A stretch of DNA of 40,584 nt. It comes from Bacteroidota bacterium (GTDB lineage Bacteria > Bacteroidota > Bacteroidia > UBA7662). Numbering within the stretch: the first letter of the stretch is position 1; every line of letters starts with the position of its first letter. A program made the translations under genes and the position numbers. The stretch spans positions 1-40,584 of the forward strand of contig SYHW01000052.1 of the NCBI GenBank assembly GCA_005799065.1, in the 5' to 3' direction. Of this stretch, positions 33,374 through 40,584 are shown piece after piece. Below the pieces are notes generated by a model. It ran no database searches, was not told the origin of the DNA, and saw only the letters and a program-made list of their open reading frames with translations.

Positions 33374-34639
33374 TCATAGCCTTCGATTGGCCAACAAAGG
33401 TGGCGGTTCTCCGTTGAAAGGATTTTCACGCCCGATGGTGCGCGCCATAAGTCCAGAAGCCCGAACCACGGCACGGTCCCCGAAGCGCTCCCTCATGCGG
33501 TCCATGGCTTCATAGAGTTGATGTGCCTGCGGCACTTGTTCGAATAACCGCAGTTGCACACCACCCGAAACCAAATCACTGAAACGCACACCCACCAAGC
33601 GAATCAACATCCGGCGGTTGTAGAGGCGTTGAAATAGTTCGCCCACCAACGGAATCAACACATGATCGGCGCTGCTGTAGGCAATCTGCTTTTGCATGCT
33701 CACCGTCTGAAAGTCGGAGTACCGAATTTTGACCGCCACACAAGCGCATAATCGTCCGCCCCTACGGAGCTGAAAGGCCAAATTTTCCGTCATAGCCGTG
33801 AGGATTCCCTTTATTTTTTGCAGATCGGTGGTGTCGCGTTCAAAGGTGCGCTCAGTAGAGATCGATTTGCGCTCGCTAAACGGCACAACCGGGGCATGAT
33901 CTTCACCATTGGCCTTTTTCCACAGCTGCAATCCTGATTGCCCGAACACCCGCTGAAGCAAGTCGGGTGGCATATGTTGCAGGGTGTGTATGTGTTGTAT
34001 GCCTAAACCACGCAGGGAATGATGCATTTTTTCGCCTACCATCGGGATTTTTCGGACCGAAAGAGGCGCCAAAAAGGTCTTTTCCGTTCCGCGCACCACG
34101 GCTCGGGCATTGTTTGGCTTTGCTTCGCCTGTTGCTATTTTTGATACGGTTTTGTTGATCGATAGGCCACAGGAAATCGGCAATCCTGTTTCACGCATAA
34201 CCCTCTTCCTCAAGTCTTGGGCCATGCGTGTGCAACCAAAAAAACGATCCATACCACTTAAATCGGCATAGAACTCATCAATCGAAGATTTTTCCAGTAT
34301 GGGTACAGCGGCCGATACAATATCCGTTACTGCTTTGCTGTATTCCGTGTATTGCGCCGTATTGCCGCGGATCACGATGGCTTCTGGACAAAAATGACGG
34401 GCCATTTTCATCGGCATGCCAGAATGTATGCCAAAACGACGGGCTTCATAGCTGCACGAGGCCACTACTCCGCGGTCGCTCATACCACCCACCAACACCG
34501 GCTTATTGTTGAGACGGCTGTCGATCAAACGCTCAACGGAAACAAAAAATGTGTCGAGGTCGAGATGAAGAACTGTTCTTGCGCCCCAAACACTGTCTGA
34601 GGATTCATGAGATTCTGGCTGTGGTTGCATAACGTTCAT
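33374..34639 (-). CDS. dinB: Y-family DNA polymerase (DinB-like)
   Basis: A translesion polymerase of about 421 aa. Palm motifs: LHLDLDTFFVSVERL (first metal Asp) and SSIDEFYADLSG (second acidic pair); finger and thumb: ASCSYEARRFGIHSGMP, GLSINKTVSKIATGEAKP; a little finger; and the beta-clamp motif QLRLF near residues 362-366, which would recruit it to the replisome. The frame is open to 34873, but that part reads through the dnaE tandem repeat; I prefer the ATG at 34639 (34630 is also possible), which still overlaps the dnaE end by some 30 bp. Last gene of the repressor-dnaE-dinB unit. Confidence 0.9.
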   Translation of the reverse strand: MNVMQPQPESHESSDSVWGARTVLHLDLDTFFVSVERLIDSRLNNKPVLVGGMSDRGVVASCSYEARRFGIHSGMPMKMARHFCPEAIVIRGNTAQYTEYSKAVTDIVSAAVPILEKSSIDEFYADLSGMDRFFGCTRMAQDLRKRVMRETGLPISCGLSINKTVSKIATGEAKPNNARAVVRGTEKTFLAPLSVRKIPMVGEKMHHSLRGLGIQHIHTLQHMPPDLLQRVFGQSGLQLWKKANGEDHAPVVPFSERKSISTERTFERDTTDLQKIKGILTAMTENLAFQLRRGGRLCACVAVKIRYSDFQTVSMQKQIAYSSADHVLIPLVGELFQRLYNRRMLIRLVGVRFSDLVSGGVQLRLFEQVPQAHQLYEAMDRMRERFGDRAVVRASGLMARTIGRENPFNGEPPPLLANRRL

Positions 34640-37600
34640 CGGTTTGGGATTCTGCTGGCAAGGCGACGGGATGGGATTCTGCTGGCAAGGCGACGGGATG
34701 GGATTCTGCTGAAAAGGCGACGGGATGGGATTCTGCTGAAAAGGCGACGGGATGGGATTCTGCTGAAAAGGCGACGGGATGGGGTTCTGCTGAAAAGGCG
34801 ACGGGATGGGGTTCTGCTGAAAAGGCGACGGGATGGGACTCAGGCAAACCGGCGTGGTGGGGTGCGTCGGCAAAACGGGGATCAGGGATTCTTGGCCACA
34901 ATTCCATCCGCTGCACCTCGAGGCTGTAGAACCCCAATTCTTCGGTTACCCGCCCCAACAGATGATATACACCAGGGCCCCGAAAAGGATATCGCGCAAC
35001 CACTGGAGGAAAGTGAACCGTGTCGATGTAGTCGCCGCGCTGGTCGATAAACGTACCAAACTGCATGCGATCGCCCTTCACTGTCCGGGTATCTTTGATG
35101 CTCACCAAATAGGCATTGACCACCACCACGCGTCCGCAATGCGCCTTCAGGTCGGTCGAAAAAATTCCAGCCGGCGGGGTGCCTAAAAGAAGACTAAACG
35201 GACTACTCAGCGGAAAACCGAGCAGCTCATACTCTTCAAAAGCAGATTCATGGTCTGCCTCTTCCAATTGAGGCAAATCGGGCGTAGGCAATAAATCTTG
35301 GCAAAACAGCGTACCGGAAGAAGAGGGTGTGGATCCCCTTTCTGAGGTATGCAAATGGGCTTCCCACATCAGTGCTTTTTTAGATTGTCGGGTAAACCGA
35401 AAGGCCCCTATGCGCACCAAAAGAACGAGCTGCTCGCGCGGTGGTGAAAGTCGTCGACAAAAATCAGGGAGATCTTCAAAAGGACCTCCTCGCTTCCGTT
35501 CGATTAACAGCCGCGCTACAAAATCTTCATGAATACCCCGGATCATCAGCAATCCAAGGCGGATTTCACGGCCACACAACCCAATTTCACCCGCACTAAG
35601 TTGTACGCAGGGTGCAGAAACCTGTGCTCCCAGACGCATCGCTTCGTGCAGATAATGCTCCGTGCTGTAGAATCCACCTCCATTGCGCAGGGTGGCCACC
35701 ATATATTCCAGCGGATAATGTGCCTTCAGATAAAGGCTCTGGTAGCTCTCCACCACATAGGATGCAGCATGACCCTTAGCAAAGGCGTAGCCTGCAAAAC
35801 TTTCGATTTGTCGCCACACCTCACGGCCCAATTCGGGAGCGTGCCCCCGCACACGGCATCCCTCAAAAAAGCGTGACTTAACCTGCTCGAGCTCATCGCG
35901 ACTCCGGAACTTGCCACTCATCCCCCTGCGGAGCACATCTGCTTCAGCCAAGGTTAATCCCGCGAAGCAATGAGCCACCCGAATCACATCTTCCTGATAG
36001 ACCATCACACCATGGGTTTCGGGCATGATTTCGAGTAAAACAGCGGGTGCTTCGCGGCGGCGCTCGGGAAATCGGCAGCGGAGAATATAGGTTTGCATCA
36101 TCCCGGAACGGGCAACCCCCGGGCGGATCACCGAACTAGCAGCCACCAAGCCCAAATAATCCTGTACTTGAAGTTTACACATCAGCATACGCATAGCCGG
36201 CGACTCCACATAAAAACACCCTATAGTGCGGGCCTCACGAACGAGACGCTGGGTAGCTCTGTCGTTTTTGAATAGCTCGGTCTTGTAGAGGTCGATCGGG
36301 GCTTCACCAGGACGATTTTGGGCAATCAAGGTGAGTGCGTCGGTGATTTTGGCCAATCCACGCTGGCTTAGTATATCGAATTTATGCAAACCCGCATCTT
36401 CTGCAATATTCATGTCGAATTGGGTAGTGGGAAATCCCTTGGGGGGCATAAAGGTGGCGCTAAAATGTTGTATCGGATCTTGGGTAATCAGAATTCCGCC
36501 TGCATGTATGCCCAAGTAATTAGGGAGCCCGTTGAGCCGCGATGCATATTGCAGTATGAGGCGTATGGTACGGTCGTCGCCACCGCCTGCCGACCGTCCA
36601 CGCGCCAATGCCTCAGTTTCATGGGAAGGCAAACCCAGTACTTTGGCCAGTTCACGAACCAAGGCCCGATACTGAAACGTGACGTATGTGCCCAAAAGAG
36701 CAACATTGGGGAAACGATTAAAAATGTAAGCGATGACCCTGTCGCGTTCCTTCCAGGAAAAATCAATATCGAAATCGGGCGGATTGCGGCGGTAGAGGTT
36801 GATGAACCGCTCGAAATAAAGGTCCAATTCGATGGGGTCGACTTGGGTAATTTGAAGCAAATAAGCCACCAGGCTGTTGGCACCACTGCCCCGACCTACA
36901 TAAAAGAAGCCGCAACTGCGGGCATATTTCAATATTTTCCAATTGATGAGAAAATAAGATACATAGCGCTTTTGCCTGATGATTTCCAACTCCTTTTCCA
37001 GCCTAGCGACCACCTGTTCGGATGCTCTGGGGTAGAAGCGCGGCAGGTTGAGACTGCACAACCGACGCAAGAGCCGAAAGTCGAGTTCCTCCTGGCAAGT
37101 ATAGGTCTGCTGGTTTTTGTGGGGGTATTGTTGCCCGAATTCAAAATGAATGCGACAGCGATCGGTTAGGCATCGTGTTTGGTAGATGAGGTCGGGAAAC
37201 GCATGGTAGGCCTCCGTAAATTGGTCTAGTGGCATCCAGCTATGGGTATCGGGAGCAGGGTCATCGGGGGGTAACTTACTGAGCAGGCAGTTTTGGTCGA
37301 TCGACCGCAGCAGACGGTGTGCATTCCAATCGGCACGATCACGAAAAGTCATGGGTTGAATGGCAAGAGCCTTACCCGGTGGAACACGACAAGAAATCAG
37401 ACGCCAGCGCGACAAGTCACGGATTTCTACACCCAAAAATTCATGCTCTGCGAGCTGATGCCCATTCCAAACGGATAGGGAATAGACCACCACTGCATTT
37501 TGGAATCGGGGTGCGCGATACCCGGGCTGAATCTTGCCTTGGAGTATGTTGCTCAGGTACACACAGACTTCAACATAACCGGCGTTATTGCAGGCCAAAA

Positions 37601-37823
37601 TCAGATAATGTGGTCGGTTGCGAACGCGTATGTCGACCCCAGCCAGAGGCCTTACGCCGTAGGAAGGCGCCAAGCGCACAAAGTCGAGTATGGCCGCCGT
37701 ACTGTTGATGTCGGTGAGGGCTACGCAGTCGACTCCCGCCTCCCTGGCCTGCTCGAGAATTTGAACGGGCGACAAAACCCCATACCGCAGACTGAATCCG
37801 CTGTGAACCTGCACATACATCAC
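34605..37823 (-). CDS. dnaE2: DnaE2/ImuC-like DNA polymerase III alpha subunit
   Basis: A 1072-aa C-family polymerase, shorter than replicative DnaE and with the polymerase signature NPPDFDIDF (catalytic D350 and D352), the preceding GRGSGANSLVAYLL, KFDILSQRGL and the late motif AKGHAASYVVESYQSLYLKAHYP. The N-terminal PHP domain has lost canonical metal ligands: the usual HxH reads QVH (Q5, H7) and TDH reads TDI (I39), so proofreading from PHP is unlikely. Residues 996-1058 are seven 9-residue repeats of the type SHPVAFSAE. It starts 9 bp after the repressor gene and precedes dinB. Replicative DnaE is presumably elsewhere. Confidence 0.88.
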   Translation of the reverse strand: MMYVQVHSGFSLRYGVLSPVQILEQAREAGVDCVALTDINSTAAILDFVRLAPSYGVRPLAGVDIRVRNRPHYLILACNNAGYVEVCVYLSNILQGKIQPGYRAPRFQNAVVVYSLSVWNGHQLAEHEFLGVEIRDLSRWRLISCRVPPGKALAIQPMTFRDRADWNAHRLLRSIDQNCLLSKLPPDDPAPDTHSWMPLDQFTEAYHAFPDLIYQTRCLTDRCRIHFEFGQQYPHKNQQTYTCQEELDFRLLRRLCSLNLPRFYPRASEQVVARLEKELEIIRQKRYVSYFLINWKILKYARSCGFFYVGRGSGANSLVAYLLQITQVDPIELDLYFERFINLYRRNPPDFDIDFSWKERDRVIAYIFNRFPNVALLGTYVTFQYRALVRELAKVLGLPSHETEALARGRSAGGGDDRTIRLILQYASRLNGLPNYLGIHAGGILITQDPIQHFSATFMPPKGFPTTQFDMNIAEDAGLHKFDILSQRGLAKITDALTLIAQNRPGEAPIDLYKTELFKNDRATQRLVREARTIGCFYVESPAMRMLMCKLQVQDYLGLVAASSVIRPGVARSGMMQTYILRCRFPERRREAPAVLLEIMPETHGVMVYQEDVIRVAHCFAGLTLAEADVLRRGMSGKFRSRDELEQVKSRFFEGCRVRGHAPELGREVWRQIESFAGYAFAKGHAASYVVESYQSLYLKAHYPLEYMVATLRNGGGFYSTEHYLHEAMRLGAQVSAPCVQLSAGEIGLCGREIRLGLLMIRGIHEDFVARLLIERKRGGPFEDLPDFCRRLSPPREQLVLLVRIGAFRFTRQSKKALMWEAHLHTSERGSTPSSSGTLFCQDLLPTPDLPQLEEADHESAFEEYELLGFPLSSPFSLLLGTPPAGIFSTDLKAHCGRVVVVNAYLVSIKDTRTVKGDRMQFGTFIDQRGDYIDTVHFPPVVARYPFRGPGVYHLLGRVTEELGFYSLEVQRMELWPRIPDPRFADAPHHAGLPESHPVAFSAEPHPVAFSAEPHPVAFSAESHPVAFSAESHPVAFSAESHPVALPAESHPVALPAESQTDERYATTARIS
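34650..34838. repeat. 27-bp tandem repeat, 7 copies, in dnaE and open in the dinB frame
   Basis: Seven units of 27 bp; the core reads TTCTGCTGAAAAGGCGACGG. In the dnaE frame each copy gives SHPVAFSAE (or LP variant), and in the dinB frame NPIPSPFQQ. The two dinB-proximal copies carry GGCAAG where the rest have GAAAAG; two copies nearer to dnaE have a G for A change. Confidence 0.92.
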
Positions 37824-37832
37824 GAAGAACGT

Positions 37833-38648
37833 TTAAGCCCAACCCCGACCCGTATTTTGCTGCGGAACATACTGATCCAGCAGCTGACGCAAGCGACCCA
37901 GAAGCTCCCCTGCCTCGTCGGTAGAGCTGCGATGTGGATCTGGCAAATCAAAACTCAGATAAGCCTTAACCCGCCATACCTCGAGAAGCTGATCGGCCGT
38001 CATCCGATAGGGCTGATAAGCTGGATTATCTGATATCAACTCCAAAAAACCTTCATTGAGATGGTTTTTGATGCGCTTAAATACTACTCCTTCACCAGTA
38101 GACACCACAACACAGCATTGATAGTCGCGCAACTGCTGCCAATCGCGTACAAATTCCGCAATGAGGTACGACCCATCGGGGAGGGGACGCATGCTATCAC
38201 CCTTAATCTGAAACATACGGTAGGACCGGTTCGGATTCAGCTCCGAAACTGGAAGCATAAATTGAGGAAGACGGGCTACGAAATCGGGATCCCGGTGGCC
38301 CTCGAGGTAGCCAGCCGCTGCCTGAACAGGCACCAAGGTAATCTGTTCGCGTTGATCGACCCCATCTACTGCCACAGACAACACCCGTAGCCGTTCGCCC
38401 GCTGGATCAGTATGACGAACCCCACCAGGCAGACGAACAGCCGCCTCCTTCACCAACTCATCGACCGAACAGCCGAAGCAATCGGCCAGTTGACCCATCA
38501 CCTCCAATGGAGGGGCGGCCCTACCCTGTTCGTACGCCCCCACAGTAGCCCGCGCTATACCCAATCGAACAGCCAATTGCTGCTGTGTGAAGCCGAGCTT
38601 CCTACGAAAGCGCACCATATTTCGACCGAAAATCAGTTTAATATCCAT
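37833..38648 (-). CDS. LexA-like XRE/S24 self-cleaving repressor
   Basis: A 271-aa regulator. Residues 10-66 are a Cro/XRE helix-turn-helix (FTQQQLAVRLGIARATVGAYEQG). The C-terminal S24 (LexA/UmuD-type) domain carries a candidate cleavage site A112-G113 (VQAAAGY), the catalytic Ser152 in GDSM and the catalytic Lys191 in VVFKRIK, so DNA damage-triggered self-cleavage is expected. It heads the unit with dnaE2 and dinB, consistent with an SOS-like control of mutagenic repair; it could equally be an autorepressor of its own operon. Confidence 0.88.
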   Translation of the reverse strand: MDIKLIFGRNMVRFRRKLGFTQQQLAVRLGIARATVGAYEQGRAAPPLEVMGQLADCFGCSVDELVKEAAVRLPGGVRHTDPAGERLRVLSVAVDGVDQREQITLVPVQAAAGYLEGHRDPDFVARLPQFMLPVSELNPNRSYRMFQIKGDSMRPLPDGSYLIAEFVRDWQQLRDYQCCVVVSTGEGVVFKRIKNHLNEGFLELISDNPAYQPYRMTADQLLEVWRVKAYLSFDLPDPHRSSTDEAGELLGRLRQLLDQYVPQQNTGRGWA

Positions 38649-38673: not shown

Positions 38674-38681
38674 CAAAATTA
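38674..38681 (-). promoter_or_regulatory. -7 promoter element (TAATTTTG) for the repressor-dnaE2-dinB unit
   Basis: Exact TAnnTTTG on the minus strand, 25 nt before the start at 38648. Confidence 0.6.
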
Positions 38682-38688
38682 AAGATGC

Positions 38689-38717
38689 CAATATAGATAG
38701 AATAACAATATAAATAG
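38689..38717. promoter_or_regulatory. Candidate operator: 12-bp direct repeat between the divergent promoters
   Basis: CAATATAGATAG (38689-38700) and CAATATAAATAG (38706-38717) match in 11 of 12 positions with a 17-bp start-to-start spacing. A partly matching inverted CTATATTTG (38744-38752) overlaps the next -7 box. Binding by the S24 repressor is inferred from position only. Confidence 0.45.
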
Positions 38718-38744
38718 CATCAAGGAAAAAATAATCTTAATACC

Positions 38745-38752
38745 TATATTTG
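38745..38752 (+). promoter_or_regulatory. -7 promoter element (TATATTTG) for the 140-aa gene and mbnP set
   Basis: Exact TAnnTTTG, 3 nt before ATG 38756; it excludes an earlier TTG at 38750 as the start and predicts a leaderless transcript. Confidence 0.65.
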
Positions 38753-38755
38753 TGT

Positions 38756-39178
38756 ATGAGTTACAAACGACTAAACAGCGATCTCATCGACCTCATCGAG
38801 CTGCGCAATGAGCTGCACGCAATGGCCTTCAACGATCCCCAATACGACGATTTAGAAGACGACCTCCATGACTATGAGGACACCTTCAACCGACGGTATC
38901 AGGGAATCATCGCGCCTATACTCATTCGAATACATAAAAAACTAGCGCCCGAAATACCCCACCTCATTCCAACGGCCTATGTTGCGAACCACTATGAATA
39001 CTTAGCAGAAACCGATACCTATGAAACCGATGGCACATCGGGCGTAGTTCTCGAAAACGGAGCAGGAAACAACTTCCGTCTTACCTTTGTACCCAATCCC
39101 ACTCGTCTGCTGCTCACCAGCAGCAAAGACATGCAGGTAGTGTGGAGCGAAAACCAACCCGATGATGAAACCAAATAA
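38756..39178 (+). CDS. Conserved Bacteroidota hypothetical protein, 140 aa
   Basis: From ATG 38756 the protein opens MSYKRLNSDLIDLIELRNELHAM and has an acidic helical N-terminal half (YDDLEDDLHDYEDTF), then a C-terminal part with IPTAYVANHYEY and LTFVPNPTRLLLTSSK. No signal peptide or membrane segment is visible. I recognise it only as a conserved protein in this phylum without a proven role. It overlaps mbnP by 17 bp, so it is part of that operon, and it faces the repressor promoter. Confidence 0.75.
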   Translation: MSYKRLNSDLIDLIELRNELHAMAFNDPQYDDLEDDLHDYEDTFNRRYQGIIAPILIRIHKKLAPEIPHLIPTAYVANHYEYLAETDTYETDGTSGVVLENGAGNNFRLTFVPNPTRLLLTSSKDMQVVWSENQPDDETK

Positions 39179-39923
39179 ATCCCTGCTCTTGTTTTTGGCC
39201 ATTGGCCTGCTCCACAGCTGTGATCCACGCCCAGTTCCTGTTCCCCAACCCGACCCGACCTCAATCGATCTCATCATCGACCACCGATTTGGTGCTCAAC
39301 GACTGCAATTAGGCGATGTTCAATACAATACCCTCAATAACGCAATAGGAGTCGACGTGCTCGATTACTACCTCGGAAAGCCATCGTTCCAAAAACCCGA
39401 TGGGTCTTGGGTCAGTAGCTCCTCCTATTTTTTGGTGAAGGCCCAATCCAATCAACCAGACACCCTCAGAATCACCGATATCCCTGTAGGCGCTTATACC
39501 CGCCTATGCTTTACATTGGGGGTAGACTCGGCCGATAACCATGCAGATCCGGCATTATGGCCCAATGAACATGGACTTAGCCTAATGAATGGGGGGCTCA
39601 TGCACTGGGGATGGAATGCAGGGTATATATTCTTTAAGCTTGAAGGACGCTACCGCAATACGGCTTCCCAAAACCGCGGCTACAGCTACCACATCGGCCG
39701 CGACGATCTCCTCAGTACGATCAGCTCGCCGACACTCGACATACAGCACCAGGATGGAAAATCTACCGCCATAAGGGTCAATATGTACATCGATCGTTTG
39801 TTCAACGAGCCGCACGCACACCTCATTTCCGACTCCTCATTTTTCACCCACAGTACACTCGGCGACGCGATAGCACCGATTTTACATGAAAATATGCAGG
39901 GAATATTTGAATTCACTCAGTAG
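39162..39923 (+). CDS. MbnP-family copper-binding lipoprotein
   Basis: A 253-aa exported protein of the MbnP family. A lipobox ends at Cys20 (LLHSC), so it is predicted to be lipid-anchored. The family region includes IDHRFGAQRLQLGDV, LGVDSADNHADPALWP, and HWGWNAGYIFFKLEGRY, which contains the Trp-rich segment characteristic of the family. In studied homologues a partner di-haem enzyme converts a Trp to kynurenine and the protein then binds copper. A di-haem peroxidase gene follows immediately. ATG 39162 overlaps the upstream gene by 17 bp; 39165 is an alternative. Confidence 0.85.
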   Translation: MMKPNKSLLLFLAIGLLHSCDPRPVPVPQPDPTSIDLIIDHRFGAQRLQLGDVQYNTLNNAIGVDVLDYYLGKPSFQKPDGSWVSSSSYFLVKAQSNQPDTLRITDIPVGAYTRLCFTLGVDSADNHADPALWPNEHGLSLMNGGLMHWGWNAGYIFFKLEGRYRNTASQNRGYSYHIGRDDLLSTISSPTLDIQHQDGKSTAIRVNMYIDRLFNEPHAHLISDSSFFTHSTLGDAIAPILHENMQGIFEFTQ

Positions 39924-40070
39924 GTAAACGGGTTCACTTATATGTGATCAACCCATTACCTAAAAGTCGGACATAGCCAATAAAAAGAATTTTCCTACAC
40001 CCACCCTATGTCTATCCACAGCCTCGCTTTTATCCAAGTCATCGACAACCCTAAATCCGTAAAGTTGTGG

Positions 40071-40584
40071 ATGAGAATCATCGTTTATTTCTTGATGGCA
40101 ACAGGGGCCTGGTCTTGCCAACCCAATAGCCCCCCAGTCCCCAAAGAATACCCAGAACCCACCCCTTTCAACTGGGTAAATAAACCCTTTTTTCCTCCAC
40201 CAGTCCTTCCAACCAGCAACCCCCTAACCTTGCAGGGGGTGGAACTCGGCCGACACCTGTTCTACGAAAAAAAACTCAGTGGCGACAACACCCAAGCTTG
40301 CGGGAGCTGTCACCGACTGAATTTTGCATTCAGCGACTCGCTTCTACGCTACAGTAAGGGGATCGATGGAATTGAAGGATCGCGCAACAGCATGGCTTTG
40401 TTTAACCTCACTTGGCACACCCGATTTTTCTGGGACGGAAGAACGCCAAGTCTTCGTGAACAAGTTCTATTGCCCATACAAGACCCCATCGAAATGCACC
40501 AAACCCTGCCCGATGCGGTAAGAAAAATAGCAGAAACCCCCAAATATAAAGCCCTATTTGGAGCCGCTTTTCGAAGCGAGGAGG
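40071..40584 (+). CDS. MbnH/cytochrome c peroxidase-like di-haem protein, 3' partial
   Basis: The reading frame from ATG 40071 is open to the window end. It begins with a short lipoprotein signal (MRIIVYFLMATGAWSC), then PFFPPPVLPTSNPLT, and the first haem c site CGSCH (codons around 40302-40316) preceded by GRHLFYEKKLSGDNT, the usual di-haem peroxidase opening; SDSLLRYSKGIDGIEGSRN and FFWDGRTPSLREQ also fit. It is the probable partner of the upstream MbnP. An ATG at 40008 is in frame but would put the signal too deep. The second haem site is outside the window. Confidence 0.8.
   Translation, partial: MRIIVYFLMATGAWSCQPNSPPVPKEYPEPTPFNWVNKPFFPPPVLPTSNPLTLQGVELGRHLFYEKKLSGDNTQACGSCHRLNFAFSDSLLRYSKGIDGIEGSRNSMALFNLTWHTRFFWDGRTPSLREQVLLPIQDPIEMHQTLPDAVRKIAETPKYKALFGAAFRSEE

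Follow-up and report, generated by a model that had tools for sequence, protein, structure and literature searches.

A predicted paired operator at the promoter of an S24 repressor-polymerase operon in an uncultured Bacteroidota lineage

In Bacteroidetes, the palindrome CTAA-N5-TTAG has been described as the operator of a non-canonical LexA belonging to the S24 family (Sanchez-Osuna et al. 2021, PMC8565304). According to that account, the repressor of P. actiniarum binds CTAA-N5-TTAG in EMSA, mitomycin C induces the repressor gene, and substitutions in either dyad abolish binding (PMC8565304). Several sites may be found per promoter, and the repressor regulates its own gene as well as imuA-imuB-dnaE2. 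The same source describes contraction of the regulon, variation in regulon size and dyads that have diverged with an unchanged spacer length (PMC8565304).

The locus considered here belongs to an uncultured Bacteroidota lineage and lies within a window that comprises the whole 40,584-nt stretch of DNA analysed. Between an S24 repressor gene and a divergently transcribed gene set that includes MbnP, a sequence-only reading had placed a candidate repressor operator containing two 12-mers, from which one protein was suggested to control both sets and to tie DNA damage to copper or haem stress. The proposed operator function draws support from sequence conservation in three genera of the family, from a profile search run blind and from kinship with the published CTAA-N5-TTAG. 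The element is predicted, with a probability of roughly 0.88, to be a paired operator through which a Bacteroidota non-canonical LexA controls its own expression. The lineage would thereby join the organisms in which this regulatory system is found.

The S24 operon and the repeats in the divergent gap

The repressor gene (37833..38648, minus strand) encodes an S24-type HTH protein, probably a Bacteroidetes non-canonical LexA, in which an N-terminal HTH_3 domain (PF01381, 9.8e-14) and a C-terminal Peptidase_S24 domain (PF00717, 1.3e-09) both score above the cut-off. Ala112-Gly113, Ser152 and Lys191, assigned by position and motif, are invariant in all eight aligned S24 proteins. The domains detected are HTH_3, HTH_31, HTH_26, HTH_19 and Peptidase_S24, and the canonical LexA winged-helix domain is not among them. 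Solved structures match the HTH part alone, none spanning the whole protein, and the 434 and P22 repressors were matched to it by profile. No S24-domain protein other than this repressor was found in any of the four genomes of the window's genus (g1). When named genomes were searched for the S24 gene, only the three records of the genus and a single distant match (L029) were returned. The record VHAX01000002.1 (L028), titled as a Sphingomonadales metagenome assembly, contains the same Bacteroidota locus with 93% identity at the protein level, and its title is probably wrong.

Downstream of the repressor gene and on the same strand, the operon continues with the genes for a DnaE-type DNA polymerase III alpha subunit (34605..37823) and a DinB-type Y-family polymerase (33374..34873 as listed, the true start being probably nearer 34600). 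The order S24-dnaE-dinB, with all genes in the same direction, is found in g1 and in the genus g2; the operon of g3 comprises S24-dnaE, and in G015 and G014 a weak match to dinB follows. The dnaE/dinB junction of the window carries a 27-bp minisatellite (34645-34838; 7.2 copies, 97% match), which is read in both overlapping open frames, as HPVAFSAE at the tail of DnaE and as NPIPSPFQQ in the listed frame of DinB.

A gap of 107 bp, approximately 76% A+T, separates the S24 start codon (38648, minus strand) from the ATG of ORF140 (38756). The two 12-mers had been placed exactly right: CAATATAGATAG (38689-38700) and CAATATAAATAG (38706-38717), both read on the plus strand, have 5 bp in between, and the distance of 17 bp given for them holds from start to start. 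Both 12-mers are degenerate versions of the CTAA-N5-TTAG palindrome. On the S24 (minus) strand, the predicted proximal operator (38688..38700) reads CTATCTATATTGG and is separated from the S24 start codon by 39 bp, while the predicted distal operator (38705..38717), located 17 bp from the proximal one, reads CTATTTATATTGT; they differ from CTAA-N5-TTAG at 2 and 3 of 8 positions, respectively.

The sequence-only reading had also described two -7 boxes and a partial inverted copy of the repeat that overlaps the second of them. Both boxes are present with the pattern TAnnTTTG, and the plus-strand box TATATTTG (38745..38752), which ends 3 nt before the ATG of ORF140, is kept in all four genus genomes, whereas the candidate minus-strand box of the S24 operon (TAATTTTG, 38674..38681) is retained in none of the three same-genus relatives (G001-G003). 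By eye, one guess is that the -7 element of the minus promoter is instead a TAnnTTAG inside the proximal site. The partial inverted copy is present at 38741-38750, where it is 90% complementary to 38690-38699. As a candidate third operator it was set aside, given its overlap with the conserved -7 box of ORF140, a box present in other genera with no paired operator near; the inverted copy need not be an operator.

The direct repeat by itself proves nothing: when the 107-bp gap was put through 300 dinucleotide shuffles, 40 of the products contained two 12-mers in direct orientation that differed at no more than one position, and an inverted 10-mer with at most one mismatch was likewise obtained in 40/300. 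Throughout the genome, the 12-mer with at most one mismatch has 14 matches versus 13 for the reversed control, and a regulon signal is thus absent from these counts. The exact CTAA-N5-TTAG, counted in 17 family genomes, is below its reversed control everywhere (for example 5 versus 44 per strand in G000), probably because the reversed motif is an unfair control in coding DNA, owing to stop codons; the counts were therefore kept out of any inference about a regulon. Since the repeat is not beyond chance in such an A+T-rich gap, outside evidence in the form of comparison was required. The equally good shuffles and the near-equal genome counts are what speaks for chance repeats in an A+T-rich gap, but conservation across genera at a fixed spacing, the profile search and the occurrence of one pair per genome, as set out below, make this explanation extremely improbable.

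Conservation of the site pair

The genomes compared include metagenome assemblies. G001-G003 retain both the gap and the S24 gene, the latter 93-97% identical to that of the window; in these three genomes the operator block opens TGCTAATATAGATAG and continues to CAATATAAATAG or CAATATAAATAT. Over the four g1 genomes, which provide four closely related sequences, 29/33 columns of the operator block are invariant versus 25/46 in the rest of the gap with the plus promoter block excluded (Fisher P = 0.0013). The plus-strand -7 box together with its surroundings is conserved better than the operator block, with 27/28 columns invariant. The window's proximal site departs from CTAA-N5-TTAG at 2 positions and that of the three same-genus relatives at 1, and the distal site has between 2 and 4 mismatches across the genus. 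In all four g1 genomes the paired site occurs exactly once, solely at the S24 promoter, and the reversed control gives 0.

Relatives that keep the operon have not lost the repeats. The S24 gene is present in 11 family genomes, and a pair of sites is found in 10/10 readable S24 promoters, counting the window's genus with its diverged copies and leaving out G014, in which a contig end cuts the upstream region. Directly upstream of S24, two palindromic CTAA-N5-TTAG-like 13-mers lie 17 bp apart in g2 (G005, G006) and 18 bp apart in g3 (G007, G010, G013, G015), giving a family spacing of 17 bp in two genera and 18 bp in one. The block TGCTAATTTAATTGG-TTTT-CTAATTTTATTAGCA provides an example from outside g1. 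At the S24 gene itself, CTAA-N5-TTAG is exact in G005, as CTAATTTAATTAG, and in G006, and other family genomes mostly show 1-2 mismatches.

To escape circularity, a pair profile was trained on 13 promoters outside the genus and used to scan both strands of the 40.6-kb window at spacings of 17 and 18 (162,212 placements in all). The window's site ranks first, scoring 16.4 on the S24 strand; the runners-up are the same place on the other strand (15.1) and two placements that half overlap it (10.9 and 10.3), while the best score at any independent place is 7.6.

The comparison also bears on whether the sites serve a regulator other than the adjacent S24 protein, which is very unlikely. The window copies depart from the published consensus, and binding by the S24 protein is itself a prediction; however, the pair stands at S24 wherever a family S24 promoter is readable, it is missing at the DnaE-DinB operon of G016, the one relative in which that operon is clearly kept and S24 is absent, and relatives of the S24 protein are described as binding CTAA-N5-TTAG (PMC8565304). 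G008 is uninformative in this respect, as it holds a DnaE fragment only and the contig ends there. In f2 and f3, the two remaining families of the order (G017-G020), S24 faces a dinB-like gene and lacks CTAA-N5-TTAG at up to one mismatch, which counts against the operator reading.

S24 relatives at E values up to 1e-40 were found in 206/296 genomes of the class, and 40 S24 promoters outside the family were drawn from the better-scoring genomes. The exact CTAA-N5-TTAG is present in 17/40 promoters, where mononucleotide shuffles predict 0.4. If one mismatch is allowed, 21/40 have a site (8.4 expected) and 19 have none, and two or more such sites are present in 17/40 (0.95 expected). The commonest spacing among the 40 promoters is 17 bp (8 cases, and one of 18), and spacings of 41, 58 and 23 bp also recur. 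The nine cases of 17-18 bp are not nine independent events, because they come from only three families (f38, f34 and f7), with six from f34; conservation is therefore counted as three genera of the family, or four families with the class-level sample. In a further family, f40 (L145, L146, L149, L150), the S24 site pairs are 23 bp apart rather than 17.

The divergent MbnP set and recA

The divergent set, transcribed from the plus strand, opens with ORF140 (38756..39178), which is annotated without a function, and continues with a gene for an MbnP-family protein (39162..39923) and a di-haem cytochrome c peroxidase or MbnH-like gene (40008..40583), which is cut by the window end. The -7 box before the ATG is retained in g1, g2 and g4 at a distance of 3-4 nt, and it is therefore assigned to ORF140 rather than to the operator; in g2 and g4 it reads TAATTTTG or TAACTTTG at the same place, with no paired operator near. 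From the position of the box in three genera (38745-38758; L070, L071, L072), the ORF140 mRNA is predicted to be leaderless or nearly so. MbnP and MbnH have been presented as a conserved pair whose function is unclear and whose close homologues had, as of 2013, been linked to copper by no data (PMC3621798), and this description further weakens the reading of the set as a response to copper stress.

The gap could in principle contain a shared divergent operator, from which the S24 repressor would also switch ORF140-MbnP-peroxidase with DNA damage. The sole gap between the two gene sets does hold the operator, and the divergent order is kept in 4/4 g1 genomes. Both sites lie well upstream of the -7 box of the plus promoter; the distal site ends 27 bp before that box, near the expected -33 element, and its centre is located approximately 46 bp before the probable plus start. 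The adjacency is, however, confined to the genus. MbnP is present in 15/17 family genomes and adjoins S24 in 4/4 g1 genomes but in 0/6 others having both (G005, G006, G007, G010, G014, G015), in which the two sets lie on different contigs or approximately 128 kb apart. Upstream of 14 MbnP places outside the genus (1.5 kb scanned per place, 0.8 kb in one), there is no pair of sites 17-18 bp apart with at most one mismatch each; the same scan gave six isolated matches in four loci, with no shared place. Under a looser pair rule, three longer MbnP loci from g2 and g4 also have no 17-18 bp pair. Together with the persistence of the ORF140 -7 box in g2 and g4 in the absence of the operator, these results make joint control of the MbnP set by the S24 protein unlikely, and the proposed link between DNA damage and copper or haem is left unsupported, surviving as a possibility specific to this genus.

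As the paired site tracks the S24-DnaE-DinB operon, its reading as an operator is supported and the copper link is not. With a promoter box of their own, the ORF140-MbnP-peroxidase genes most likely adjoin the operator without being regulated from it. CI helps RNA polymerase at its own promoter. In this genus only, it is conceivable, albeit doubtful, that the distal dimer hinders or helps RNA polymerase at ORF140 and that the di-haem/MbnP system answers DNA damage; if this were true, an extracytoplasmic system would respond to DNA damage in the genus. The comparison carries a more general caution, namely that a single divergent gap is a poor ground for co-regulation, given that little of the argument for joining DNA damage to copper survives a single comparison with sister genera.

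The core SOS gene recA was also considered as a further target and is unsupported as such, since CTAA-N5-TTAG with at most one mismatch is absent at 13/14 family recA places, the window's genome included (at one place, L102, the start was assumed too far upstream, and approximately the final 30 bp ahead of the likely start fall outside the scanned stretch). The sole recA place with a site is that of G004, a genome in which S24 was not found. From recA, no wider SOS regulon can be seen in this family; given the published variation in regulon size, a recA site need not be expected of every member of the group. By eye, the recA promoters of three genera (L100, L101, L103, L108-L111) share a TTGACA/GTGTCA-AAAGATGTCA-like stretch, which is unrelated to the S24 operator and is also present in the S24-less G016.

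Predicted mechanism and comparison with known systems

With the sites, their fixed spacing, their conservation alongside S24 and the invariance of the catalytic residues all observed, the paired operator may be envisaged to function as follows. Two S24 dimers would occupy two palindromic 13-bp sites, degenerate versions of CTAA-N5-TTAG with centres 17 bp apart, and, sitting just upstream of or over their own promoter, would keep S24-dnaE-dinB off. After DNA damage, RecA filaments would promote self-cleavage of the repressor at Ala112-Gly113, and the operator would be freed, allowing the repressor and the two specialised polymerases to be made. Binding, RecA-dependent cleavage and induction are predicted by analogy with published relatives, and cleavage also from the conserved residues. 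The position of the sites just upstream of the S24 start fits the blocking of RNA polymerase, and in g2 the closeness of the proximal site to the start codon would place it at or near the transcription start. That a spacing of 17 bp, or about 1.6 turns, has been retained across four families suggests joint binding by the two dimers.

Since the window copies are degenerate and substitutions in the published dyads abolish binding, either recognition has shifted or affinity is low. The operator appears to have drifted from CTAA-N5-TTAG to about CTA-N7-TAG while the 17-bp pairing persists. The fixed pairing at 17-18 bp is regarded as a refinement of the known operator, and no novelty is claimed for the spacing.

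Tandem operators are also used by the phage CI-type repressors (lambda, 434 and P22 C2). The S24 protein has a related HTH domain, and its two adjacent palindromes suggest a comparable binding of paired dimers. In contrast to the phage systems, the operon controlled here would be a host polymerase operon and not part of a prophage, and the operator spacing of lambda differs from the 17-18 bp pair.

The closest likeness is to the Bacteroidetes non-canonical LexA proteins (COG2932, the CTAA-N5-TTAG group), with which the S24 protein shares HTH_3 and S24 domains, an Ala-Gly cleavage site and a Ser-Lys dyad, and the locus shares CTAA-N5-TTAG-like palindromes at the repressor's own gene and linked error-prone polymerases. 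Relative to the published description of that group, the sites here are degenerate (about CTA-N7-TAG) and form a fixed pair at 17-18 bp, and a recA site is absent. The SOS regulator of Elizabethkingia anophelis (TTAC-N5-GTAA, PMC8565304) has another dyad, and its polymerase is described as the regulator's 'tandem opposite', whereas dnaE and dinB follow codirectionally in the present operon. The two systems nevertheless resemble each other in that each combines a diverged dyad and a spacer of equal length with a position at the regulator gene, beside an error-prone polymerase.
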